Positions 1,447 to 22,717 of a stretch of 24,409 nucleotides of DNA are shown in pieces. The DNA lies in the IMG/VR virus record IMGVR_UViG_3300010885_062243, positions 1 to 24,409 of that record; one strand, given 5' to 3'. Under the pieces are notes generated by a model. That model did no database searches, had not been told where the DNA came from, and was given only the letters and a program-made list of their open reading frames with translations. A program made the position numbers and the translations under genes. Source of the DNA: a virus. Position 1 is the first letter of the stretch. Every line of letters begins with the position of its first letter.

Positions 1447-2099
1447 TATTGTAAACTCCTTGTAAAATATCCTGAGGTTTTGCGCATTTGTTCTTCACGT
1501 TGATATTTACCTAAAGTATCGGTGTATAATTGGTCATATTTAGTACGTTCATCAGCTTTCTCATAAGGAATAGCTTCAAGTAAACAGCGATAAAGCAATA
1601 GGTTATAAGCATTATTAGTTAAAGTATTAGTCGGTGTAAGCTCACTAAGTGCTAAAGGCAATTGATAATATATTATTCTAGCTTGATAATTCTGCTTAGG
1701 AGTTGGTGTTATAAAAAAATTATAAACATCTGCTTCGGCAATATATTTAGGCTGTCCTAATATTGATTGATTAGGACTATATTTATAACAATAATCTAAT
1801 GATGCTGATTTAAGCGGTGTTAAAATATTATAAACTAATGGTGTTACAAGATCAGCAGTAAAAATATAAAATGTAGATAGATTTTTATAATCAATAGGTT
1901 TTGGGAAAGTCGGTTGACTAGCCTCTAAAGTAAAATCTCTGGTAACTCGATCTTCAATAGATTTTAAATCAAGCGCAATAGATTGTTGAGCATTAGATAT
2001 AAATCTTGGTATTTCATTGGATAAAGACAATGAAGAATTTTGCATATATTGCTGTATATCATTGACCAATCCAAAATAATCATTTTGGGCTAGCGGCAT
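1446..2099 (-). CDS. Phage adaptor protein (SU10-type head-tail adaptor)
   Basis: The 217-aa protein fits the family of short-tailed-phage adaptors that join the portal ring to the tail nozzle. Family features visible in order are an N-terminal helix with IPRFISNAQQSI (family pattern IP.FI..AE..I) and a central beta region with a GQPKYIAE stretch. A YYQLPLALS segment follows, then TNNAYNLLLYRCLLEAIPYEKADER, which fits the conserved helix near the C-terminus (family pattern TN.LL...PDLLLYAALLEA.P..KD.ER). Length is normal for the family. It lies between a virion protein and the fibre gene, as expected for neck and tail genes, and is coupled to the fibre by TAATG. Family assignment is from recognised sequence pattern only. 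Confidence 0.75.
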   Translation of the reverse strand: MPLAQNDYFGLVNDIQQYMQNSSLSLSNEIPRFISNAQQSIALDLKSIEDRVTRDFTLEASQPTFPKPIDYKNLSTFYIFTADLVTPLVYNILTPLKSASLDYCYKYSPNQSILGQPKYIAEADVYNFFITPTPKQNYQARIIYYQLPLALSELTPTNTLTNNAYNLLLYRCLLEAIPYEKADERTKYDQLYTDTLGKYQREEQMRKTSGYFTRSLQ

Positions 2100-2119
2100 A
2101 GTTGTCTCTTACTGTCCTC

Positions 2120-2830
2120 CTATTCTTGGCAAAGTACATTAGTGTAACCTCCGTCACTATTTATACCTGCATTATTCATTGCAATAAATTTTACACTTTT
2201 ATTTATTATTTGTGAATTAAAAGTTAAAAAATTAATGTTTTGTAAAATTGCTGAAGCATTAGTATTATTAGCTCCTGGTTGTAATAATATATAAAGTGGT
2301 GTTCCATTACCTCCACCGCGAATTGTTCCTATATTTATTCCACCAACTATTACATAATTTCCACTAACAATTACCGACCCACCGCTTATAACAGTTAAAT
2401 TATCTTCTAAAGTTACATTATCATAGATAAGCACCTGTAATATACCTGTACTTAAATCCGTAGCACCATTTGCTTGAGATATGGTAATATTAGGATTAAG
2501 AATTACCGAAGGACCACCAATAGTATAAATTACGGTATTACCAGTATTATTAAGTGTTATAGCCTCAGTAGGTTGTACGTAGAAAGGACGAGGAGTATCA
2601 ACCGGAAACGGATCTCCAGGTAATGCAAGGACCTTCCCTTGAGGATTAGGTTCTGTTAAAAAATCTTTATGAACATAAAATCCAGTAAAAGTTAAAGTAT
2701 TACCATACCATTCATATTGTTTTTTTAAATCATAATGCATAATCTTAAAGCCAGATGTATCACATTTAGCGGTAGGATTATGGTTCCTGAAAGAATAAGG
2801 TTGATACTTACGATTTTTTTTATATTTCAT
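2120..2830 (-). CDS. Conserved podovirus virion protein of unknown function
   Basis: The 236-aa protein has two parts. Residues 1-80 contain a CDTSGFKIMHYDLKKQYEWYG segment and VHKDFLTEPNPQG. These resemble a small conserved phage domain (CDRSGF....L+K.W.GL.V....EP+HPQ) that often sits among podovirus neck and tail genes. The rest is Gly/Asn/Ile-rich, predicted beta, and looks like a fibre or beta-helix segment. The ATG shares an ATGA overlap with the stop of the gene upstream. The role is unknown; a tail-associated structural protein is inferred from the neighbours. Confidence 0.6.
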   Translation of the reverse strand: MKYKKNRKYQPYSFRNHNPTAKCDTSGFKIMHYDLKKQYEWYGNTLTFTGFYVHKDFLTEPNPQGKVLALPGDPFPVDTPRPFYVQPTEAITLNNTGNTVIYTIGGPSVILNPNITISQANGATDLSTGILQVLIYDNVTLEDNLTVISGGSVIVSGNYVIVGGINIGTIRGGGNGTPLYILLQPGANNTNASAILQNINFLTFNSQIINKSVKFIAMNNAGINSDGGYTNVLCQE

Positions 2831-3912
2831 AAATTAAACTGAAAAATATATGGTGCATGTTCGGTATCTTCTTGCTCGATATCTTCCATAGATTTTGCAG
2901 CTGATTGCATTAAATTAGCCATTTTATCAGGTGATATTTCAATACCCATTATTTTATCTTTCTGTGCAAGTTTTAAAGCTAAATTTGCACAGAAAGCTTC
3001 ATAAAATCTATTAGGAATATTCAATATATCCGTCAGATAAATAATCTGAGGACTCAAGACTTTTAAATTAAGAATAAGATAAGGATAATCAAGCTTTCCA
3101 TCAGGGACAGGCCATAAAATAATTGAAGGATTAATATCTCTGTTTAATAAATAACTTGAAACACTTCCTGTTAAATCTTTGGTTGCTATTCCTAAATATT
3201 GACTACGACTAAGTAAACTTATTTGTCTTGAAATATTATGCGTACAAAAATAGAGCTCTTGGATATCTAAAGTAGCTCCGTTTGTTTCTCTAATACGCCA
3301 ATAAGGAGCTAATTGCGCAACTTTATTTACATACCAAACTTGCTGACCGGCAAGATATGTTTGTAGACCAGTAGTTGGTGGATTTTGATTATTAATAACT
3401 GGATAAATATTGATCCAATTACTATTATCAAAAGAATATTCTATTGCTAATGTATATTGCTGCGTAGTATTAGATTGAATTCCAATATAATCAAGAGCAA
3501 AACCAGGATTATTATTAAAATTATAAGCTATATAACCGTTAGACGCAGTTTGTGTACAAGAAGTTGTACTATTACCGTCAAAAGCATTTTGTGCAACTCC
3601 TGAACTGCTACTAGCAACACCCCCTAGTTGTCTGGTGATATTAGCTATCGATACTTCTCGCTCAGGAACATCAGCAGTTCCAATAGGCAATTGATAACTT
3701 TTTTGACCAGTTGTCAAATTAACCATAAACGGTTGAATACTATAAAGATTATTATATTTTGCCCAATCAGTAAGTAAAATATTTAAAGAATTTATTGCAC
3801 TAATAAGAGGATTTCCAACTAATTCAGGTAAAGTTAAACCAATACGTTCAAAAGACTCTATAATAATTTCATTTGCTGTTACATTTATAAAAGGGTTCAG
3901 AGTAATTGCCAC
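2827..3912 (-). CDS. P22 gp4-like head-completion protein with inserted F5/8 type C domain
   Basis: The 361-aa protein starts at GTG (3912) behind a good AAAGGAGAG site. Residues 1-90 and 228-361 form a family resembling the P22 gp4 packaged-DNA stabilisation (head-tail connector) protein. The signatures are ANEIIIESFERIGLT, a long helix with LNILLTDWAKYNNLYS, GQKSYQLPIGTADV, LLSRSQYLGIATK, ILWPVPD, and a terminal helix FYEAFCANLALKLA. Residues about 91-227 interrupt this core with a discoidin-like (F5/8 type C) beta-sandwich: NAFDGNSTTSC near 109-119, YSFDNSNWINIY at 159-170, and a closing strand WRIRETNGATLDIQELYF at 205-222. Such domains bind carbohydrate or lipid in other proteins. The core role is closing the portal after packaging. 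The role of the insert, perhaps surface display on the neck, is inferred. Confidence 0.75.
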   Translation of the reverse strand: MAITLNPFINVTANEIIIESFERIGLTLPELVGNPLISAINSLNILLTDWAKYNNLYSIQPFMVNLTTGQKSYQLPIGTADVPEREVSIANITRQLGGVASSSSGVAQNAFDGNSTTSCTQTASNGYIAYNFNNNPGFALDYIGIQSNTTQQYTLAIEYSFDNSNWINIYPVINNQNPPTTGLQTYLAGQQVWYVNKVAQLAPYWRIRETNGATLDIQELYFCTHNISRQISLLSRSQYLGIATKDLTGSVSSYLLNRDINPSIILWPVPDGKLDYPYLILNLKVLSPQIIYLTDILNIPNRFYEAFCANLALKLAQKDKIMGIEISPDKMANLMQSAAKSMEDIEQEDTEHAPYIFQFNL

Positions 3913-4628: not shown

Positions 4629-5444
4629 TTAATTATAAGGAGCTGCGTATTGAGGTAGTCCATAAACAGTTTTATAAGTTTGTTGATTTACTTCAAATGG
4701 AATTGCTGCCATAATCCATGTTACAATAAGTCTTTTAATCCCATCAGCAGCACTAGGAAGTAAAACCGTACCTCTAATATCTCCGGTAATTGCTGTTGCT
4801 GGTGCCGTCTGATCAGCAATTGTGTAATTAGTACCTATACCAGTTGCTGGAATTGCAGCAATTACAGTCGGTATTCCAAAATTACCATTAATAATTCTAT
4901 TAACATTATTTAATACATAAGGAAGACCGATAACACCACTTGTTCCTACAGATACAACAGTAATAGTTGCACCACCTGCCCAAACTCTAGTAACACCTGC
5001 AAAAGCTTTTTTACCGGAAGTAGTAGCAGCTGCAACAGCAGAAATTTGTTCAGTCATAAATAGATCATCTTGATCAAATCCCCACACAGTAAAAGTAGTA
5101 GGAGTAGCTCCTGTGCCTAAGGTAATAGTTACTGCACGTGGAGTATCAAAAAAATAAATTGTGTCAGTTGTATTAGTAAACACATTATAAATACCAGATA
5201 CTGTCGTTACACCAGTTCCAGCTGTAAGAGGTATATAAGAAGCAACAGTTGGAGCAGTTACTGCTGCTGCTAAATTATTATTAGTAGCAGCTAAAGGGAT
5301 AACAGAAATACAACCTAACTGAGGTTGTGGAATACCCACTTGCATTCCATTTAAAGCCTGAGCCTGTACTGTACCGATACTAATTAAATTACCGAAATTA
5401 TTAGGTTGATAAAATTTATTTTGTGTAGTTAATGAAAAAACCAT
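4629..5444 (-). CDS. Virion structural protein, unknown function
   Basis: The 271-aa product is rich in Ala, Thr, Val and Ile, low in charge and predicted all-beta. It lies just downstream of the major capsid gene (15-nt gap) with an AGAGGTTATA leader. The C-terminal segment IKRLIVTWIMAAIPFEVNQQ and the central FTVWGFDQDDLFMTEQIS motif are the most distinctive parts, the latter shared in outline with the next gene. Similar beta-rich proteins follow capsid genes in many short-tailed phages, but I cannot name the family. Decoration, head-fibre or neck roles are all possible. Confidence 0.6.
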   Translation of the reverse strand: MVFSLTTQNKFYQPNNFGNLISIGTVQAQALNGMQVGIPQPQLGCISVIPLAATNNNLAAAVTAPTVASYIPLTAGTGVTTVSGIYNVFTNTTDTIYFFDTPRAVTITLGTGATPTTFTVWGFDQDDLFMTEQISAVAAATTSGKKAFAGVTRVWAGGATITVVSVGTSGVIGLPYVLNNVNRIINGNFGIPTVIAAIPATGIGTNYTIADQTAPATAITGDIRGTVLLPSAADGIKRLIVTWIMAAIPFEVNQQTYKTVYGLPQYAAPYN

Positions 5445-5459
5445 TATAACCTCTTTAAA

Positions 5460-6362
5460 TTAAAAACCTTGACAACAAATAGTTGACCTAGCATTACTTG
5501 GACCGCTTGAATAACGATCAAAACCACCCATACCAACAGTTCTATTCTTTTCATCCATCCATGAAGATACTTCAGCCATGTTTTTCTCATAAAAAAGCAA
5601 TCCGTTTGGACATGTTGTAAATAAGAAAAATGAGTTAGGATTAGTTAAATAAGGATTAACCACGTAACCACCTTTTACAAATCCTTGATGATATACAACA
5701 CCGATATCACGATTAGCAGTACCAGGACGTTCGGCATTAAATAACACTCGAGCCACATCATATTGAAGAGTTGGTGAACAAAGTAATTTATCACCTTCAT
5801 AATTTAATACTTTACCAGCAGCATCAGGTAATGTCTGAGCAATTGTGATCATATCTGTAAGAGCTGTCTCACTAAAAGTAGCAGGAGAAAGAACATTAGA
5901 ATACACACCAACTGCTGTTGGATGTTGAGTTGATGCAAATGCTTGACCATCACCGATTGGATTAGTATTATTAAACGCAAAATTAAATACGTTAGTTGCA
6001 TTCACGTCACGAGTTAATACTAAAGAAGCTTTAATTTGTTCTCCAGCATTTGGAAACTCATCGGTATATAAATTATCGTCTATTGATTCGAAAGTGAATT
6101 CTATCGCGCTACTAAAGCTGGTATGATCGTACTGCGTTTTATTAATAATGAAGTTAGTTTGTAGTTCATATGCTTCACCTTCGTTCATTGCTTTCGCATA
6201 TCCCATTGGTGCATATTCAACAACTATATCAAATGCTTTTTTAGTTGGAACTAACTTAAAATACTTTTTATATAAGCTTTCATAATATTTAGCATCACAT
6301 AATACTAAGCTTAATCCAGGCCACATAAAATTTATAATTTGCGATCTTGTTACTTGTGCCAT
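5460..6362 (-). CDS. Major capsid protein (HK97-fold, Mu gpT-like type)
   Basis: The 300-aa product has the pattern of this capsid family. A central VFNFAFNNTNPIGDGQAFASTQHPTAVG segment matches the F..AF......DG..LFST.HP consensus. ETALTDMITIAQTLPDAAGKVLNYEGDKLLCSP matches the long spine helix and the strand with LL.P. The C-terminal VVNPYLTNPNSFFLFTTCPNGLLFYEK matches the P-domain strand. The protein assembles the icosahedral shell, and many hundred copies are needed. A strong ribosome site (AGGAG) precedes the ATG, and the nearest promoter upstream (7085-7113) has near-consensus boxes. No cleaved prohead peptide is evident, and a separate scaffold candidate is encoded upstream. Confidence 0.85.
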   Translation of the reverse strand: MAQVTRSQIINFMWPGLSLVLCDAKYYESLYKKYFKLVPTKKAFDIVVEYAPMGYAKAMNEGEAYELQTNFIINKTQYDHTSFSSAIEFTFESIDDNLYTDEFPNAGEQIKASLVLTRDVNATNVFNFAFNNTNPIGDGQAFASTQHPTAVGVYSNVLSPATFSETALTDMITIAQTLPDAAGKVLNYEGDKLLCSPTLQYDVARVLFNAERPGTANRDIGVVYHQGFVKGGYVVNPYLTNPNSFFLFTTCPNGLLFYEKNMAEVSSWMDEKNRTVGMGGFDRYSSGPSNARSTICCQGF

Positions 6363-6389
6363 TTAAATATCTCCTCTTAAATGTTTTAA

Positions 6390-7037
6390 TTATATTGTTA
6401 ATGATGGGTAGCAAATGCTTGCATTGATTTTTACCAATACATTATTACTTATTGTGCTCCATGCATTTCCATTGTTTGGTGATAAATTAATCACTTGAAA
6501 ATTTGTTGTAGCAGCAGGGGTAGTTATTAGTTGTCTAATCTCGGCTGTTGAATAACCTGTTGAAATATTACCATCACCTGCTGAAAAATTAAGTTGACTT
6601 GAAAAGTTTGCTCCATCAAATAAACTTATTACTGGAAAACCAGTAGGCATATCTGTTGAATTTGATTGCATATCATATAAAGTATTCATATCAACCTGAA
6701 CAGCAACATATGTTTGCACACCTGTAGGTTTAATTGTATTTTTTACCCAATATTGTTGTATTGTTGTTGGAATTACTCCTTGATTTGCACTTGGTGCAAC
6801 TATTCCTGTACCACCGGTTGTAAAATCTTTAAATGCTCTTGCTGAACCAAGTATTGGAGCATTAGTTGCACCAATAGTAATTGTACCAGAGTTTGTTGCT
6901 ACTGTTACTGGACTTCCTACAAAAATGTTTGCATTATATCCACTTGCTATAGGATACCATAAGAAATTTGCTGAATAAGGATGATCCGCAAAAGATTTTA
7001 CTGGATTCATTCCCTGATTTTGATTATAAGCTACCAT
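6390..7037 (-). CDS. Capsid decoration/head-stabilising protein candidate
   Basis: The 215-aa product is the first gene behind the internal promoter and directly precedes the capsid gene. It has an AAAGGAGATAA ribosome site. Features are FLWYPIASGYNANIFVGSPVTVAT, then GATNAPILGSARAFKDF and VAVQVDMNTLYDMQS. The layout resembles a family encoded next to capsid genes in short-tailed phages (YPIADGY...I..GDPV....G.I..A....ILGVF.G....YV.DDPD..FEVQ). By this pattern and position I infer a head protein, possibly a decoration protein. The alternative is a minor capsid protein. Confidence 0.6.
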   Translation of the reverse strand: MVAYNQNQGMNPVKSFADHPYSANFLWYPIASGYNANIFVGSPVTVATNSGTITIGATNAPILGSARAFKDFTTGGTGIVAPSANQGVIPTTIQQYWVKNTIKPTGVQTYVAVQVDMNTLYDMQSNSTDMPTGFPVISLFDGANFSSQLNFSAGDGNISTGYSTAEIRQLITTPAATTNFQVINLSPNNGNAWSTISNNVLVKINASICYPSLTI

Positions 7038-7084
7038 GTTAGTTATCTCCTTTAATTAATATAAGTTTTCCGACCTATATTAAT

Positions 7085-7113
7085 ATTGTAGGTAACTAAC
7101 AAAGATATGTCAA
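7085..7113 (-). promoter_or_regulatory. Promoter of the capsid sub-operon
   Basis: Read on the minus strand, the -35 box is TTGACA (7108-7113), the spacer is exactly 17 bp, and the -10 box is TACAAT (7085-7090). This is one mismatch from the sigma70 consensus. Transcription would start near 7078, about 40 nt before the decoration-like gene. It would give the capsid genes extra transcripts beyond those from the main late promoter. Confidence 0.75.
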
Positions 7114-7197
7114 AAATTTGTAATAACAGTTAATTTTTTGAAAAATAAAAAATAAAATATTTTGATTTAAACTATAATTTGTTTATAAATAAAAATA

Positions 7198-7274
7198 GGA
7201 AATCCTAATCTTTTATAAATCCATTAAATTGAATGCTTAATTTTAAACTAGTTAGAGCAACGATTAGGATTTCC
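7198..7274 (-). terminator. Long-loop stem with U-rich tail between scaffold cluster and capsid cluster
   Basis: A perfect 13-bp inverted repeat lies at 7198-7210 and 7262-7274, separated by 51 bp. It begins one base after the stop of the 175-aa gene. On the minus strand the distal arm is followed by TATTTTTATTT. This could be a weak or partial terminator or an RNA-processing site that separates the two transcripts. The loop is long for a classical rho-independent terminator, so the function is uncertain. Confidence 0.5.
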
Positions 7275-7275
7275 A

Positions 7276-7803
7276 TTAGAAATCATCATCTCTAACCGGA
7301 CGTCTTACATGACTATACTCTTTTACTTTACCCTCAGCCCTTTCAAATAAACCAGGACGTGCTGGAGAATAATTAGGTTTACGACCTGCGGTAGCTGCGC
7401 CTTGAAGTGCTAATTCATGATTAGCTTTCTCATGATATTCCCAGATATATTTATCTATTTCCATCAATATCTGTCCATGTCTTATTACCACATCTTCATT
7501 ATTATTTTTATTCTTTTCAGTAATAATATTAAAATATGGATGCATACTTTTTTTAACAGGTATCCATCCTTTTTCCATAAGTTCCATTTGATAATCACGT
7601 TTACTAGCAGGATTAAGATCTGCAAATAACCACATTTTATCAGATGGAATTATTTCTTTTGGAATATGTAATTTACCAAGACGACTATTCATCATAGTCG
7701 TTCTATACTCATCATAAGATAATTTAGTTTTACGTTTATCATCAGAACGAGTTTTAATAGCTTTAAAACTTACTTCATCTTCTTTGTTTTCATGATTATT
7801 CAT
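7276..7803 (-). CDS. Conserved head-cluster protein, unknown function
   Basis: The 175-aa product is hydrophilic and basic at the C-terminus, ending in a short acidic tail (RDDDF). A central segment MWLFADLNPASKRDYQMELMEKGWIPVKK, then VVIRHGQILMEIDKYIWEY, resembles a small phage family encoded between scaffold and capsid genes (RWV......RI.....KGWE.VP...., then I..G...LM..P.E). The start codon overlaps the scaffold stop as ATGA, so the two are probably translated in a coupled way. No enzymatic motif is visible. A minor head or assembly role is inferred from position. Confidence 0.6.
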   Translation of the reverse strand: MNNHENKEDEVSFKAIKTRSDDKRKTKLSYDEYRTTMMNSRLGKLHIPKEIIPSDKMWLFADLNPASKRDYQMELMEKGWIPVKKSMHPYFNIITEKNKNNNEDVVIRHGQILMEIDKYIWEYHEKANHELALQGAATAGRKPNYSPARPGLFERAEGKVKEYSHVRRPVRDDDF

Positions 7804-8867
7804 GAGTAATAACCTCTTTCATGTGCTTTATTTTCTTGATGTTTATCATTATATTTTTTATATAATTTAGCTTTAAGTTCAGGATTTAAAGGTTTTCCAT
7901 TTTTATCTTTTACTTCAACTTTTTTAATTAATTGTCTAGCCATATTATTTAAAACTCCTAAACTCTTATTTTTTCCATCTTTCATAAAATCTCCATTTCT
8001 TTTTACACCTGTTATAGGATTATTTATTAAATTATGCATTCTTTCATCATGAGTACTATATTTATTATGCATAGCGTCTTCTACCTCTCTATAGAATCCA
8101 GCAGAATAAACTTTAACTTTTTTACCACTAAACACATATTTTTTCTTTAAATCTTCCATAACTGCTATTGTTTCATCAACAAGTCCTTGATCATAATGTT
8201 CTGAAGATGGATTCATATAAGGGTTAGCTTTAACAAAATTTCTAGAATCAGGATCTAATTTATTAATATCAAATTTAGAAGATTGTTTTCGTGGAGTAGG
8301 GCGATTCTCAGTAATATACTCTTCATCACTAGAATACTCTTGAGGTGCTTGCTTAGCAAATTCTCGCATTTTCAGATCTAAATTAAAGCGCGCTTCATTT
8401 AGCTTTTCTAAAGTGTCTTCAGCTTGAAATATACGTGTTTTTTCTTCTTTTAATTCTGCATCACGTTTAATAGCTTTAACAGTTTCAATATCATCTTGAA
8501 CTTTTTTATAATCAGAAGCCATTTTATCTGCTTGTTGCTGATAAATAAGTTTACGTTGCTGAATTATTTCATATTCTTTAGCTAATTTTTCTTCATTGTT
8601 TTGATTAACTTGCTCTTCTAAAGCATTTAAACGTTCTACAAGCTTTCTATTATTTTCAATTTCTTCTTGTTTATCACGCCTGCTTCTTTCATCAAAAGAA
8701 TCTACATCTATTTCTTCTTCCTCTTGATCATCAAACTCAAAATCATTAGCATCATCATCATTTGAATGATTATCTACGATTTCTTGAAGATCTCTCTGAG
8801 TAGTTGGTATTCTTCCTTCTAAAATTGCCTCTTCTTCATCGTCTAAAAATTTACTTTTATCATCCAT
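7800..8867 (-). CDS. Putative scaffolding protein
   Basis: The 355-aa product has a strongly acidic N-terminus (residues 1-60, many Asp and Glu). A long charged coiled coil follows (about 65-180, Glu/Lys/Gln-rich), then a mixed C-terminal part. That part includes DSRNFVKANPYMNPSSEHYDQGLV, resembling the W....NPWF.......A....A motif of podovirus scaffold families, and a Lys-rich end. This composition, the place two genes ahead of the capsid gene, and the lack of any other scaffold support an internal assembly scaffold. It follows the GroES-like gene by 23 nt with a GGAGACAACC leader. Assignment is by architecture, not by clear homology. Confidence 0.6.
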   Translation of the reverse strand: MDDKSKFLDDEEEAILEGRIPTTQRDLQEIVDNHSNDDDANDFEFDDQEEEEIDVDSFDERSRRDKQEEIENNRKLVERLNALEEQVNQNNEEKLAKEYEIIQQRKLIYQQQADKMASDYKKVQDDIETVKAIKRDAELKEEKTRIFQAEDTLEKLNEARFNLDLKMREFAKQAPQEYSSDEEYITENRPTPRKQSSKFDINKLDPDSRNFVKANPYMNPSSEHYDQGLVDETIAVMEDLKKKYVFSGKKVKVYSAGFYREVEDAMHNKYSTHDERMHNLINNPITGVKRNGDFMKDGKNKSLGVLNNMARQLIKKVEVKDKNGKPLNPELKAKLYKKYNDKHQENKAHERGYYS

Positions 8868-14822: not shown

Positions 14823-15339
14823 TTTTTAACTTCTTAACTTTCTCTGCCATTTCCATTAATTTAGAAAAACCATCAGAAGCAAGAAAATCATTAACAACAC
14901 TATCTAACATTTCAGTTGCAAATTTAGCACCTTCCATACTTACCACTCCATTACCTAAATCCTCTAATAAGCGCAAACGAGTTTTCTTTATATCCTCAAT
15001 TGTTTTAATGCCGCCAAAGTCATAATTTAAAGTATTAGCAATCGGAAATTTATTAGTTCCTTTTAAAGATTTATGAGTTAATTGTAGTATAGCGGAATTG
15101 CCTTTAGCCATTTCTTTTAAAGCGCAATCATCCCAAAAGCCTCTAACTTGCTCTTTTACATCTAAAGTAGCTTGTTTAAACTTAGGATACTTTTTACACC
15201 AATCGTAATAAGTACTATTGTCTATACCGTATACATTACATGACTTTTGAATATGACCTGCATGAGCTTTATATATTTCTAAAAACTTGTCAGGATCTTT
15301 ATACGGTTTATTGGTTTTATGGGGTTTTTTGGTTTTCAT
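14815..15339 (-). CDS. Terminase small subunit candidate (TerS)
   Basis: I chose the ATG at 15339 (174 aa); a GTG four codons upstream is also possible. Both starts overlap the end of the ParB-like gene. After a Lys/Pro-rich leader, residues about 15-80 have a helix-turn-helix layout: FLEIYKAHAGHIQKSCNVYGIDNSTYYDWCKKYPKFKQA. This matches the small-terminase pattern (..A...G.I...C...GI...T.Y.W....P.F..A). The C-terminal half is helical (IEDIKKTRLRLLEDL, then KLMEMAEKVKKLK) and would mediate ring assembly. The gene overlaps terL by 8 bp, the normal order for terminase pairs. TerS recognises packaging sites and regulates TerL. Confidence 0.75.
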   Translation of the reverse strand: MKTKKPHKTNKPYKDPDKFLEIYKAHAGHIQKSCNVYGIDNSTYYDWCKKYPKFKQATLDVKEQVRGFWDDCALKEMAKGNSAILQLTHKSLKGTNKFPIANTLNYDFGGIKTIEDIKKTRLRLLEDLGNGVVSMEGAKFATEMLDSVVNDFLASDGFSKLMEMAEKVKKLKNE

Positions 15340-15823
15340 ACTCACAACCACATTGCGGACAGATTATTGTTTCAGGTATAGAAGCAATATTCTGAGAGGA
15401 TTCTATCTCTACTTCTTGTTTAGGCTCATCAAATATATTCTCAGGCATTCCCCATTCTTTGAGATCATCCATATCAAAGTTATTAGCTAACATATCCATG
15501 TCCCAATCACCAAAACCTAGATTGTCTCTAATATTTAAACGTTTAAGTTCTTCTTCAGATAACAGTCTATTTGGTTTTAAAACATTAATATCATCACTTT
15601 CTTTAAAACCTGCTGCAAGAAGAGCTTTTTTACGTGAATGACCACCAATGATAACGTTATCATAAGTAACTAAAATACGACGATGATAACCATCTTGTTT
15701 AATGTCGTTAACTAATCGATTGAAATCTGTCTTGCTTATTCTACGTGGATTAATAGCGTAATCTTTTAATTCTTTAAGTTTAATTGTTGTTTCAATCCAT
15801 AATATTTTATTTGATTGTTCCAT
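15317..15823 (-). CDS. ParB/Srx-like domain protein with C-terminal Cys knuckle
   Basis: The 168-aa product has a ParB N-terminal-like fold. DYAINPRRI is at 21-29, a helix LVNDIKQDG at 37-45, and the signature IIGGHSRKKALLAAG at 58-72. The RLNIRDNLGFGDWDMDMLANNF segment (95-116) is typical of phage proteins where this domain is fused to a DNA methyltransferase. Here no methyltransferase follows. The protein instead ends with CPQCGCEYEN (155-164), half of a zinc ribbon. ParB-like domains bind CTP or act as nucleases in different families. Position directly before the terminase genes suggests a role in packaging or DNA processing. It starts in a TAATG overlap with the 56-aa gene. Confidence 0.75.
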   Translation of the reverse strand: MEQSNKILWIETTIKLKELKDYAINPRRISKTDFNRLVNDIKQDGYHRRILVTYDNVIIGGHSRKKALLAAGFKESDDINVLKPNRLLSEEELKRLNIRDNLGFGDWDMDMLANNFDMDDLKEWGMPENIFDEPKQEVEIESSQNIASIPETIICPQCGCEYENQKTP

Positions 15824-16497: not shown

Positions 16498-16533
16498 GGA
16501 CATCCATATTATAATTTGCATAATAATTAGAAA
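16474..16533. terminator. Inverted repeat spanning the convergent 3' ends of the nuclease and OmpW-like genes
   Basis: The arms are 16474-16495 and 16514-16533. They match over about 20 bases with two extra bases in the left arm, and include a perfect 10-bp core TTATGCAAAT / ATTTGCATAA. The loop is 18 nt. The arms overlap the last codons of both genes. A bidirectional transcription barrier is likely from the position. There is no long U tract, so it may act as an mRNA 3'-end stabiliser instead. Confidence 0.55.
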
Positions 16534-17294
16534 CTAAATGTTAAACCGGCAGTAATAGCAGTTGTACTAGGATGAAGCCTCAAAGTCTTAGAACTTGGTA
16601 ATACATCTTTATATTTCTGTGGAATTTTTTGTGGATTCATAAAAAGGACATTTTTAACATTTATATCACTAGACGGTCTATGAGTATATTTAACGTCAAC
16701 GTTAAAACCAACCAAATCATTATAAGGTATGTCAAAGCCAATTTGGCCTACGATACCACCGCCATTTTTTAAACTAATATTATCTGCTCCGCCCTTCATA
16801 AATCTATAAGAATAACCTGCACCAACATAAGGTCTAAATAAACCTTCAGGAAAAAAGTGATATTGAATAAGTGCAGTAATAGGTATAACATCTACTGCTT
16901 TTGAACTTTTATTATGAGCTCTTACATAAAGAGCAATAGTATCAGCTTTGCTATCTGTTTCAGTTGATATTTTAATTGTTTTATGACCGATAGAGCCTTC
17001 AATAGCAATATTATCAGTAAGAAAATAACCTGCAGCTATCTCATATATACGGCCATTATGAAATTTAACATCAGCTTTATTAATCAAAGCATTTGGATAA
17101 AATTTATTATTTAGTGTTAAATCTTGTCCATAATTTAAATGGCCTTTATATGCAGAAAACATATAACCACCACGTAGTTTAATTACTACTTTATTAGTAG
17201 GTTTAACAACATCCGCAGCTAGAGCAGGTAAAGAAGTTATAATGATTAATATGGCTGTTATTAAGGCTATGCTTGTTTTTTGTAGTTTTATCAT
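16527..17294 (-). CDS. OmpW-like outer-membrane beta-barrel protein
   Basis: I chose the ATG at 17294 because of the AGGAGG site 7-8 nt upstream and the clean signal peptide; a longer frame to 17369 lacks both. Residues 1-26 are a Sec signal (KLQK, hydrophobic core, ALA cut site). The mature protein shows OmpW-type features: KLRGGYMFS (first strand), AAGYFLTDNIAIEGSIGH, ITALIQYHFFPEGLFRPYVGAGYSY, VGFNVDVKYT, and a terminal ITAGLTFSF strand ending in Phe, the signal for outer-membrane insertion. It has its own promoter (17314-17342), so it may be expressed in the lysogen. A cargo or surface-altering role is inferred; a homologous rickettsial antigen family is also possible. Confidence 0.75.
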   Translation of the reverse strand: MIKLQKTSIALITAILIIITSLPALAADVVKPTNKVVIKLRGGYMFSAYKGHLNYGQDLTLNNKFYPNALINKADVKFHNGRIYEIAAGYFLTDNIAIEGSIGHKTIKISTETDSKADTIALYVRAHNKSSKAVDVIPITALIQYHFFPEGLFRPYVGAGYSYRFMKGGADNISLKNGGGIVGQIGFDIPYNDLVGFNVDVKYTHRPSSDINVKNVLFMNPQKIPQKYKDVLPSSKTLRLHPSTTAITAGLTFSF

Positions 17295-17313
17295 AAGAAG
17301 TCCTCCTATATTC

Positions 17314-17342
17314 ATTATAACATTTATTCTTATAAATATCAA
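17314..17342 (-). promoter_or_regulatory. Promoter of the OmpW-like gene
   Basis: On the minus strand, TTGATA (17337-17342), 17 bp, then a perfect TATAAT (17314-17319). The start point would fall near 17307, at the edge of the AGGAGG site (17302-17307), so the leader would be very short. Confidence 0.65.
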
Positions 17343-17377
17343 AATAAGGGACATCTTTAAAATATGCATTTGCAGCT

Positions 17378-17549: not shown

Positions 17550-17578
17550 TTGACATATATTGTTATGTGTTGTATGCT
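17550..17578 (+). promoter_or_regulatory. Module A promoter
   Basis: TTGACA (17550-17555), a 17-bp spacer, then TATGCT (17573-17578). Transcription would begin near 17585, at the left end of the 16-bp palindrome. A repressor on that palindrome would therefore block initiation. Compare module B, which has TTGACA at almost the same distance from its palindrome (30 versus 29 nt). Confidence 0.65.
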
Positions 17579-17636: not shown

Positions 17637-17783
17637 ATGATTAAATCAAGAACATTAAGAATGATCGATATTACCATAAATGCTTATAAAAATAGACATA
17701 TTAGTTTATTAGAAGCATTAGAAATAATTAAAGTTTATATAGGAATAAATCTTAAACGTAATCAAATAAAAATAAAAAGGTAA
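17637..17783 (+). CDS. 48-aa basic micro-protein, module A (paralogue of 22514-22642)
   Basis: The ATG at 17637 is preceded by AAGGAG at good spacing. The product is basic and mostly helical. Residues 17-44 (YKNRHISLLEALEIIKVYIG onward) align with the 42-aa product of module B (YKDGYINFFEALQIILLYVG onward). Shared positions are YK, I/N-F/L-EAL-II, Y-GLN/GIN, and the end KR.QI. The conserved heptad-like hydrophobics suggest an interacting helix. The family is not known to me. It is the first gene behind the operator and lies 4 nt before the next gene. Confidence 0.65.
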   Translation: MIKSRTLRMIDITINAYKNRHISLLEALEIIKVYIGINLKRNQIKIKR

Positions 17784-17787
17784 AATT

Positions 17788-18093
17788 ATGCTTATTTTAA
17801 ATTTGACCCCCGACCAATATATTCGATTATCAGAAGAAGAACAAAAAATATTGCAATCGTATTATAAAAAAGTTGCTTTAAGCCAAGAACAATATAATAA
17901 ATTATCTGACGAAGAAAAGGAGCCATTGTCTTATGAAGACTCTCCTTTAGATGAGTATTGCGGTAATTTGACTTTAAATTATCTAACTCAATTAATCGAT
18001 AATAATGATATAGGTTCAAAAATGACGCGATATTTAATAAACAAATTAACTATGTTAATTATACAACTTAAACTTTTAAAACAAGGTCATTAA
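17788..18093 (+). CDS. 101-aa acidic protein with an internal repeat, module A
   Basis: The product is acidic and helical. Residues 6-22 (LTPDQYIRLSEEEQKIL) and 31-47 (LSQEQYNKLSDEEKEPL) are an internal duplication with pattern L-S/T-x-D/E-Q-Y-x-x-L-S-x-E-E. The C-terminal half (about 60-98) is hydrophobic and Leu/Ile-rich with a KLTMLIIQLKLL segment. The module B gene at the same position (22137-22502) shows no convincing similarity. It lies 4 nt after the micro-protein gene and 4 nt before the HTH-like gene, so co-transcription is likely. Function unknown. Confidence 0.6.
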   Translation: MLILNLTPDQYIRLSEEEQKILQSYYKKVALSQEQYNKLSDEEKEPLSYEDSPLDEYCGNLTLNYLTQLIDNNDIGSKMTRYLINKLTMLIIQLKLLKQGH

Positions 18094-18097
18094 AATA

Positions 18098-18307
18098 ATG
18101 ACTATTCCTGCTTTAAATAATTTAGTTACAGTTGAACAGCTTGTTAAAAAATACCCTCAATTAACTATTGGAGGTGTGAGATGGTGGATATTCCACCGTA
18201 AAACAAATAATCTTCAAGATAGTAAAGCAATTATTAAAATATCTAGAAAACTATTTATAGATGAAGCTAGATTTATTGACTGGTTATACAAAAATAAGGT
18301 ACAATGA
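18098..18307 (+). CDS. 69-aa helix-turn-helix-like DNA-binding protein, module A
   Basis: The protein has the layout of small excisionase/MerR-like winged-helix proteins of phages and mobile elements. LVTVEQLVKKYPQLTIGGVRWWIFHRKTNNL (9-39) gives the HTH with GGVRWWIF as recognition helix. KAIIKISRKLFIDEARFIDWLYKNK (43-67) gives the wing and last helix. The same family pattern is TV.QF...HP.FT.G.LR..IF......GL...GAI...GR+.LIDE..F..WL. The second half aligns closely with the module B gene at 21935-22150 (KI.R.L.IDE..FIDWL.KNK). A regulator or excisionase role is inferred. The 16-bp operator before the module is a natural target. Confidence 0.7.
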   Translation: MTIPALNNLVTVEQLVKKYPQLTIGGVRWWIFHRKTNNLQDSKAIIKISRKLFIDEARFIDWLYKNKVQ

Positions 18308-18334: not shown

Positions 18335-18781
18335 ATGAGAACAAAAATTTATATAAATCAAACTAATTTGATAATTGATAAAATCATAATTATTAAAGAA
18401 ACCTTTAGCAGTATAATTAAGATAATAGTTGCAATAACAAGTATTAATATCATTTATTTATTGTTTGATAAATTTATAATACCCTTTATAAATAAAGATA
18501 TAAAAACTGATCTTAGTAACGATACTAAGTTAGTTTTAGAAAAAAAAGATAATGAATCAGATACTATTGTATCATTACCGAAAAACCCTGTTTTAAATAT
18601 AGAGACTAATATTATGATTGATAATAAAGAAGAAGATACAAATTCTCTAGCTACTACAGCTTCTGAACAGCCTAATACTATTATTGACCCAGTTATTCTT
18701 TCTAATCCTCCTATTGTTTGTAATGATATACATCCAATAAATTTACCAGGAGAAGATAGAGATGTGATTATTATTGAATAA
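18335..18781 (+). CDS. 148-aa single-pass membrane protein, unknown function
   Basis: A basic and Ile-rich N-terminus is followed by one hydrophobic segment at about 25-50 (SSIIKIIVAITSINIIYLLF and beyond). The remaining 95 residues are hydrophilic, acidic and Pro/Asn/Thr-rich, with no cysteine pair. The leader lacks a clear ribosome site, so translation may be weak or coupled. It follows module A by 27 nt; module B also ends with a small membrane protein. No family recognised; membrane anchoring of the acidic domain is the only supported statement. Confidence 0.55.
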   Translation: MRTKIYINQTNLIIDKIIIIKETFSSIIKIIVAITSINIIYLLFDKFIIPFINKDIKTDLSNDTKLVLEKKDNESDTIVSLPKNPVLNIETNIMIDNKEEDTNSLATTASEQPNTIIDPVILSNPPIVCNDIHPINLPGEDRDVIIIE

Positions 18782-18796
18782 TAATAACAAATCAAA

Positions 18797-19486
18797 ATGA
18801 AAAATTGCAGTTATACAGATATAAGCAATATATTAGTTAGCGCCGGGTCAAAAGCAGCTTTTATTGATGGAATAGCAAATATAATTTTAATCGGTACTTT
18901 TACTCCGCCTCAATTAACAGTAGCTAGAATTGGTGTAGAGATTAGTACAGCATTTGTTAGCTATGCAATAAGAGAATATGCCACAAAATGTGTTGATGAT
19001 ATGCAATATGTTGGCGGAGTTGTTGGTGGCTTATTAAAATATGGAATTAAAGGTAGTAACCCAATTATTGGGGCAATTAACAATCTTGGTTATGAAATGT
19101 GTAATTTTCATAATTTAGATTCTGGTTATTGTGCAATTACAATAGAAACTACTGAAGAAGTAACAACAAGCTTGCTAGGCCTAAGTAGTTCTATGGTTAG
19201 TAAGGCATTCTTTAATGGAATAATTGCTAGCTCAGTGATAGTTACGAGCGCAGATTATGCTTATGTGCCATTAGATAAACATGTAAAAGCTGCTTTAAAC
19301 TTCACGGTGGTGGGTATAAATATTAATACCTTAGTACTAGGGCATCAATCCGATACGTGCTTTGAGCAAAGCTATAATCAGTATATGGGTAATGATATAT
19401 TTGATAAAGATATGTGTTTATTAGGAGAAACTAATTTTACAAATCAGTATAAAGATATGTGCCTTTGTGATATGAATGAAGCTTAA
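18797..19486 (+). CDS. 229-aa hydrophobic, Cys-containing orphan protein
   Basis: The product is rich in small and hydrophobic residues, with two or three possible membrane-associated stretches. Examples are AAFIDGIANIILIGTF near 20-35, GGVVGGLLKYG near 74-84, and SKAFFNGIIASSVIVTSADY near 134-153. About eight cysteines are spread along the chain, three of them in the last 25 residues (DMCLLG, DMCLCDM). There is no signal peptide, catalytic motif or ribosome site of note. The 3' end overlaps the convergent 53-aa gene by 3 bp. No family recognised. Composition resembles membrane-inserting or effector-like small proteins, but this is speculative. Confidence 0.5.
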   Translation: MKNCSYTDISNILVSAGSKAAFIDGIANIILIGTFTPPQLTVARIGVEISTAFVSYAIREYATKCVDDMQYVGGVVGGLLKYGIKGSNPIIGAINNLGYEMCNFHNLDSGYCAITIETTEEVTTSLLGLSSSMVSKAFFNGIIASSVIVTSADYAYVPLDKHVKAALNFTVVGININTLVLGHQSDTCFEQSYNQYMGNDIFDKDMCLLGETNFTNQYKDMCLCDMNEA

Positions 19487-21934: not shown

Positions 21935-22150
21935 CTATGTCTTCATTTTATTCTTTTGTAGCCAGTCAATGAACTTAGTCTCATCTATTAATAACTGTCT
22001 TTCGATTTTAACAATTGCTCCGCTTTCTTTAAGACCGTTTTCATTACGGAGACGTAACCAAAATTTTATTCTTGTTGCAGTTAATATAGTAGGCAATCTT
22101 CTTGCCATCTCGTCTATAGTGATTAGATTTCTAGGATCAGATAGGGTCAT
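21935..22150 (-). CDS. 71-aa helix-turn-helix-like DNA-binding protein, module B
   Basis: I chose the ATG at 22150, preceded by AAGGAAAT. It overlaps the end of the 121-aa gene by 14 nt; an earlier ATG would lack this site. The product has ITIDEMARRLPTILTATRIKFWLRLRNENGL (10-40) and GAIVKIERQLLIDETKFIDWLQKNK (43-67). The second block is nearly the same as in the module A paralogue (18098-18307), including LFIDE/LLIDE, FIDWL and KNK. The first block differs more, so the two may recognise different or overlapping sites. Small excisionase/MerR-like regulators are the nearest known type. Confidence 0.7.
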   Translation of the reverse strand: MTLSDPRNLITIDEMARRLPTILTATRIKFWLRLRNENGLKESGAIVKIERQLLIDETKFIDWLQKNKMKT

Positions 22151-22502
22151 TAATAATTTCCTTTTTGAAAGCATTTTCTTCATTAGAATTTTTAACTTTT
22201 ATCTTGTCAACCATATTTTGCAAACTATCTATTAAAAATTGAACAGAAACTACATCTAAATACACGCTTAATCCTGTAATATGTTTGTTGTTTTTAAATG
22301 TTTGAATATTAATACGTATAGCTTCTTGATCAGGGAAATCATGATTATTAAAAGAATTTAATATCTGCATTATAGTAGAATTTCTTTCATTATCTACAGA
22401 TGTAATATTTAAAAGATTTTTTAATAAAGTATTATCTTCCAAAACATAATTCATATGAATATCATAAATTCCTAATTTAGTATCTATAAATTTTTTGCTC
22501 AT
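22137..22502 (-). CDS. 121-aa protein, module B, unknown function
   Basis: The product is mixed alpha/beta in appearance (TKLGIYDIHMNYVLEDNTLL, then ITGLSVYLDVVSVQFLIDSLQNM). It is neither membrane nor secreted. An Asp/Asn-rich middle (VDNERNSTIMQILNSF) and a Lys-rich tail follow. The last codons overlap the start of the HTH-like gene by 14 nt. It holds the same place as the 101-aa protein of module A but no shared sequence is seen. No family recognised. Confidence 0.6.
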   Translation of the reverse strand: MSKKFIDTKLGIYDIHMNYVLEDNTLLKNLLNITSVDNERNSTIMQILNSFNNHDFPDQEAIRINIQTFKNNKHITGLSVYLDVVSVQFLIDSLQNMVDKIKVKNSNEENAFKKEIINDPI

Positions 22503-22513
22503 AATACTATACC

Positions 22514-22642
22514 TTAAAATATTGTTTTTGCTGAAATTTGTTTACGTTTAGTATTTAAACCCACATAAAGAAGGATTATCTGTAATGCTTCAAAAAAATT
22601 AATGTATCCATCTTTATATGTTCGTATAGTTTTTTTAATCAT
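22514..22642 (-). CDS. 42-aa basic micro-protein, module B (paralogue of 17637-17783)
   Basis: The ATG at 22642 has an AAGGAG site upstream. The product aligns with the module A micro-protein from YK to KR.QI (YKDGYINFFEALQIILLYVG and GLNTKRKQI). It lies 11 nt before the 121-aa gene. The same place, size and start context (TAAGGAG...ATGATTAAA) as in module A support that it is real despite the small size. Confidence 0.65.
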   Translation of the reverse strand: MIKKTIRTYKDGYINFFEALQIILLYVGLNTKRKQISAKTIF

Positions 22643-22665
22643 TTTTAAACTCCTTATTTTAAATT

Positions 22666-22681
22666 ATAAGCATATGCTTAC
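22666..22681. promoter_or_regulatory. Operator-like palindrome, module B copy
   Basis: On the plus strand ATAAGCATATGCTTAC; the inner 14 bp (22667-22680) are a perfect palindrome. On the minus strand TTGTAAGCATATGCTTATAAT parallels TTGTAAGTATATACTTACGAT of module A, so similarity extends past the dyad. Confidence 0.7.
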
Positions 22682-22688
22682 AAGTTAA

Positions 22689-22717
22689 ACATTATATACA
22701 ATACAATCGCATGTCAA
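22689..22717 (-). promoter_or_regulatory. Module B promoter
   Basis: On the minus strand TTGACA (22712-22717) is followed by TATAAT at 22691-22696 (15-bp spacer), or by TAATGT at 22689-22694 (17-bp spacer). The palindrome lies just downstream, as in module A. Confidence 0.55.

Follow-up and report, generated by a model that had tools for sequence, protein, structure and literature searches.

A narrow family of phage microproteins heading two paralogous three-gene cassettes behind a common promoter dyad

We analyzed a 24.4-kb virus record from IMG/VR (24,409 nt; hereafter the window, meaning the whole stretch of DNA) and found that it carries a pair of paralogous three-gene cassettes, A at 17637–18307 (+) and B at 21935–22642 (−), each encoding in the same order a microprotein, an acidic gene 2 product, and a winged-helix-like gene 3 product. 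Sequence comparison indicates that the microproteins form a real, narrow, and unnamed family, and both stand behind the same dyad, GTAAGYATATRCTTAY, with half-sites TAAG-N6-CTTA. We tentatively favor a model, at somewhat less than an even chance, in which this basic hairpin protein recognizes the dyad, either dimerized or together with a partner, and autoregulates its operon. An earlier reading of the window made from the sequence alone (the sequence-only reading) had picked out the two short open reading frames and overlooked the cassettes that they head. The features are as follows.

17550–17578 (+): promoter-like TTGACA-17 nt-TATGCT of cassette A; the TTGACA block aligns across copies and reads TTTACA in record L007
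17585–17600 (no strand): dyad A, GTAAGTATATACTTAC, beginning 6 nt past the predicted −10 element and covering approximately +1 to +16; identical in copy A of record L004
17624–17629 (+): Shine-Dalgarno AAGGAG of cassette A, 7 nt upstream of the ATG
17637–17783 (+): microprotein A, 48 aa, net charge +8, heading cassette A
17788–18093 (+): gene 2A, 101 aa, pI 4.9, starting 4 nt past microprotein A
18098–18307 (+): gene 3A, 69 aa, winged-helix/HTH_17-like
21935–22183 (−): gene 3B, 82 aa, winged-helix/HTH_17-like, overlapping gene 2B by 47 nt
22137–22502 (−): gene 2B, 121 aa, pI 5.5
22514–22642 (−): microprotein B, 42 aa, net charge +6, heading cassette B
22650–22655 (−): Shine-Dalgarno AAGGAG of cassette B, 7 nt upstream of the ATG
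22666–22681 (no strand): dyad B, GTAAGCATATGCTTAT
22689–22717 (−): promoter-like TTGACA-17 nt-TAATGT of cassette B, overlapped by a TATAAT at 15 nt spacing

The two microproteins are 51% identical and 69% similar over 39 aa (E = 6e-13, as a single comparison), and the core that the sequence-only reading had described, YK..I...EAL.II..Y.G.N.KR.QI, matches exactly in both window copies. Scans of IMG/VR recovered relatives in five records beyond the window, so that the comparison set comprised six records of 8–50 kb with nine microprotein copies in total; type B was found in all six genomes and type A in three. The microprotein A homologue of record L003 is 100% identical to the window copy, and for L004 the identity is 79–81%. 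In the alignment of the copies, the invariant residues of this motif are Y, I, E, L, I, I, Y, G, K, R, Q, and I, and the first K, the A, and the N vary. A Shine-Dalgarno sequence precedes all nine copies, every copy keeps its ribosome-binding site and ATG, and all frames are unbroken. The sequence-only reading had let the family stand or fall with homologues beyond the window and a translation signal, and both were found. In neutral simulations, the same base changes yielded less similar proteins than observed, indicating purifying selection between microproteins A and B (p = 0.0125) and within type A (window A versus L004 A, p = 0.0015); the corresponding signal within type B was weak (p = 0.06–0.33). 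A leader peptide was ruled out, as the residues, besides the position, are conserved across the two paralogue types. Very probably, then, the microprotein is a true product of a phage gene that opens a duplicated, self-contained regulatory cassette.

We then searched for the family in public resources. No match was obtained in Pfam, PHROGs, NCBIfam, or PADLOC, and profile scans and tblastn gave no credible match in bacterial genome contigs, annotated phages, or plasmids; the tBLASTn search that had been proposed earlier thus returned nothing in annotated phages or plasmids. Profile scans of viral contigs and bacterial genome contigs detected no distant homologues beyond the six records, and the three Candidatus Megaera plasmids that were searched contained none. 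A scan for the combination of dyad, Shine-Dalgarno, and ATG across 2.9 million viral contigs recovered no diverged microproteins and returned the known copies together with unrelated genes, mostly one recurrent phage gene. An apparent remnant in record L100 (15 residues, E = 0.004) was attributed to chance, as it lies in a different frame within a longer reading frame that encodes another protein. Searching predicted viral structures by fold identified A0A6J5RMA0 (42 aa, 74% identity over all 42 residues, E = 1.4e-4, TM 0.97) and A0A6J5RWD9 (43 aa, 49% identity, E = 0.22). Both are deposited UniProt entries from uncultured Caudovirales phage, uncharacterised and without name or function, and they probably represent the two microprotein types because their lengths equal those of L004 B (42 aa) and L004 A (43 aa). 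The earlier concern that such proteins are too short for gene calling and may be missed is not supported, since two members of 42 and 43 aa had already been deposited. A literature search found no paper on a matching phage system. Given that phage genomes contain millions of small genes, often without known function (review PMC11323111), the family is ordinary in kind, and its point of interest is the modeled 42-residue hairpin as a possible operator-binding protein.

The AlphaFold model of microprotein B, built with eight relatives, reached a mean pLDDT of 92.4 and predicted helices at residues 2–10 and 16–40, forming a helical hairpin whose second, long helix bears the invariant K-R-x-Q-I. 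No solved structure matched this model (best PDB fold match E = 2.6), and we compared it with known classes of small proteins. The ribbon-helix-helix fold consists of an N-terminal strand and two helices and was rejected for the predicted, strandless model. Its members Arc and CopG (45–53 aa) are likewise small, basic, and first in the operon behind a promoter dyad operator, but the model of the microprotein is helical throughout, without a strand at the N-terminus, and there is no sequence match. A helix-turn-helix protein was also rejected, as proteins of this class have three or more helices, among them a short recognition helix, whereas the model has two helices and the microprotein has no Pfam HTH match. 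Rop/Rom of ColE1 plasmids (63 aa, an RNA-binding four-helix bundle) resembles the model as a hairpin of two helices that could dimerise; the microprotein differs from it in having unequal helices of 9 and 25 residues and shows neither sequence nor fold match to it.

Two further classes did not fit the microprotein. A calcineurin B profile matched with E = 0.005 over KDGYIxxxEAL, and EF-hand proteins such as calcineurin B and NCS-1 likewise have a helix-loop-helix, but the microprotein loop is too short. EF-hand loops bind calcium through acidic or polar residues at positions 1, 3, 5, and 12 and have Gly at position 6, whereas the loops RTYKDGYINFFE and NAYKNRHISLLE have no Asp at position 1 and no ligand at position 3. 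Ligands 1 and 3 were absent in all copies tested, and Gly 6 is also missing in the microprotein A copies; the match is therefore attributed to convergence. A type I-like membrane toxin would have a hydrophobic helix of about 20 residues, and the maximum 19-residue mean hydropathy of the microproteins was 1.06–1.67. Among the three roles that the sequence-only reading had offered, a regulator fits best, a type I-like membrane toxin is unlikely at a hydropathy of 1.1–1.7, and an anti-repressor may apply.

The earlier observation that each microprotein lies behind a dyad was borne out, with the dyads ending 36 nt (A) and 23 nt (B) before the ATG. From TTGACA to the end of the dyad, the spacing hardly changes between copies, and the dyad keeps a nearly constant place between the −10 element and the Shine-Dalgarno sequence. 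Within the six records, the dyad (at most one mismatch) occurs at microprotein promoters only, before 8 of the 9 copies. When the six B promoters were aligned, 2 of 16 dyad columns varied, compared with 48 of 60 columns upstream, and the B copies of the window, L005, L006, and L007 carry an identical 16-nt dyad. Between types A and B, a T..A pair is replaced by C..G on both arms so that the symmetry is kept. The T..G variant of L004 B keeps a G-U pair in RNA and breaks the symmetry in DNA. In copy A of L003, the dyad and the promoter are gone and the microprotein is intact. A lone dyad of this kind is not rare, as the AT-rich window contains two 16-nt perfect palindromes against approximately 1.5 expected; what goes beyond chance is the presence of the same dyad before both paralogues and before their homologues in five other records. 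The 16-mer is also found upstream of unrelated genes in other phages, and the motif alone is not diagnostic. At positions 6036–6104 of record L049 and at approximately 35 similar loci in unrelated phage records, GTAAGTATATACTTAC and a Shine-Dalgarno sequence precede one conserved gene (MSNTHVKNIKLGACKVSFGG...), where the 16-mer may be a coincidence or the site of a host factor.

We next compared the second and third genes. The genes of cassette A are spaced 4 nt apart. No homology was found between genes 2A and 2B or between the microprotein and gene 3, whereas genes 3A and 3B are 43% identical and are paralogues. Gene 2A (17788–18093, +) contains an internal repeat, LTPDQYIRLSEEEQKIL and LSQEQYNKLSDEEKEPL, which is also a repeat at the DNA level. 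Gene 3 resembles the AlpA/excisionase-like winged-helix proteins (HTH_17, RdfS) in element order, size, and basic charge, but all of its matches lie under the curated cut-offs (HTH_17, 15.1 bits versus 27; DUF6462, 18 versus 27.1). The gene 3B model has the element order of a winged helix at low confidence (mean pLDDT 63.7) and matched the RdfS excisionase weakly (TM about 0.5, E = 1.1). The predicted recognition helix of gene 3 (residues 35–50) was variable at 13 of 16 sites versus 22 of 66 elsewhere (p = 0.0007, for a segment picked after viewing the alignment that coincides with AlphaFold helix 36–48). This hypervariable segment, in a protein that is otherwise conserved, is seen in window gene 3B and in gene 3 of L003, L004, L006, and L007. 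In L006 and L007, which have a single cassette, the B gene 3 carries an A-like hypervariable segment, which suggests recombination between the two cassettes. In cassette A of L003, gene 3A is truncated, and the microprotein and gene 2 survive.

An operator-like dyad at the promoter of its own operon is a hallmark by which we recognize an autoregulated phage regulatory cassette, and it was found for 8 of the 9 copies; judged from this arrangement, the cassette is probably autoregulated. In the mechanism that we propose, a sigma-70-like promoter would give one message for the microprotein, gene 2, and gene 3, and the dyad over the predicted transcription start would serve as the operator. A putative microprotein dimer, or the microprotein together with an acidic gene 2 partner, would bind the dyad and shut its own promoter, so that expression of the cassette would be short or level-controlled. 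Gene 3, whose predicted recognition helix changes fast, would target other sites in the phage.

The question of which product reads the dyad was weighed across the cassette. Because 2A and 2B are unrelated, gene 2 is a poor candidate for a reader shared by both cassettes. Of the cassette products, only the microprotein has kept a single core sequence in both types, matching the conservation of the dyad, and we favor it as the reader because of this common core, its strong basic charge (+6 and +8), and its stable predicted hairpin; a counterpoint is that it has no known DNA-binding fold. Alternatively, gene 3 as an excisionase/AlpA-like winged-helix protein could be the autorepressor that reads the dyad, with the microprotein as a small effector or co-factor, for example an anti-repressor or an inhibitor of a host protein. 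This we consider rather unlikely. Gene 3 is the only cassette product that resembles a DNA-binding family, through the sub-threshold HTH_17 and DUF6462 matches and the weak RdfS match, and in cassette A of L003 damage has struck both the dyad and gene 3 but spared the microprotein and gene 2, as would be expected if gene 3 were the reader. However, genomes with an identical dyad differ strongly in the predicted recognition helix of gene 3, which makes it a less likely reader of a constant site, and the stand-alone gene 3 of record L106, which has no microprotein match, has no such dyad in the 120 nt upstream. For the microprotein as the reader, the intact L003 A copy without a dyad implies that the protein must do more than bind its own operator, or that it acts in trans on dyad B.

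The dyad could instead act as RNA, with a stem-loop at the 5′ end that protects the message or tunes its translation and a microprotein that is unrelated to it. By the predicted start, the message would begin with the dyad, the two leaders each fold into the hairpin (whole-leader energies of −6.4 and −7.5 kcal/mol), and the L004 B variant retains a G-U pair but breaks the DNA symmetry. On the other hand, the leaders are only modestly better folded than shuffled sequences (z about −1.7), and a symmetric site at a transcription start is a common location for a repressor operator. We therefore regard an RNA role as improbable and prefer the dyad as an operator over a 5′ RNA hairpin. Similarly doubtful is a toxin-antitoxin-like or effector/inhibitor pairing of the microprotein with gene 2, in which both would be accessory phage cargo and the dyad would be their operator: a small basic protein is followed after 4–11 nt by an acidic one, the two persist alone in cassette A of L003, the second genes of A and B are unlike each other, as can happen with the partners in such modules, and cassette A lies within a variable cargo region, but neither the microprotein nor gene 2 matched any toxin or antitoxin model, the microprotein has no membrane helix, and the third gene overlaps gene 2B. 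These readings overlap in part, and a factor from outside the cassette is a further possibility as the reader.

In its most far-reaching form, the proposal that the microprotein reads the dyad would describe a two-helix hairpin of 42 residues that, without an HTH or RHH fold, recognizes a 16-bp dyad as a dimer. This minimal operator–repressor unit would be duplicated in one phage and combined with second genes that can be exchanged and a third gene with a diversifying recognition helix; we hold this full version to be quite unlikely. Should the microprotein prove to read the dyad, it would rank with the smallest DNA-binding repressors; otherwise, it would be one more narrow, uncharacterised family of small phage proteins.

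The distribution of the cassette was examined in relation to the terminase. Of nine viral records whose terminase shares at least 87% identity with that of the window, five have the microprotein and four lack it (L100, L101, L102, and L106, which may be incomplete records), indicating that the cassette is accessory in this phage group. Cassette A sits in a variable region, where relatives hold other cargo. The nearest terminases outside the group are on plasmids of Candidatus Megaera (Rickettsiaceae), at 40% identity, followed by Roseobacter phages at 37%. The host is thus likely alphaproteobacterial and probably rickettsial by inference from these relatives, and the rickettsial guess of the sequence-only reading is plausible. 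Rickettsiales phages are little studied, and the cassette offers a compact regulatory unit, a 16-bp site and three small proteins, from a phage of a probable Rickettsiales host.

Several neighboring genes were also observed. In the window, an OmpW-family gene for an outer-membrane beta-barrel (16527–17369, −; Pfam E = 2.6e-18) adjoins cassette A; it is also present in L004, which additionally has a C-5 cytosine methylase at this place. L004 encodes a 412-aa protein (1950–3188, −) in which an N6/N4 DNA methylase domain is fused to an N-terminus that looks ParB-like by eye, and its 168-aa homologue in the window (15317–15823, −) has kept both ends and lacks the methylase middle. Response-regulator receiver-domain genes are found in the early regions of L005 (3865–4311, −) and L006 (4010–4378, −), with a Pfam match at E = 5e-25 for that of L005. 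In the related phage L098 (IMGVR_UViG_3300047565_000205), a thiE-thiM-thiD-tenA cluster (5091–8025; Pfam E = 3e-52, 1e-68, 2e-92, and 3e-27) sits between the early genes and the terminase block, where the window has OmpW, cassette A, and the genes at 18335–19486. As cargo of a phage whose host is probably an intracellular symbiont, this thiamine salvage cluster could be of interest in its own right.
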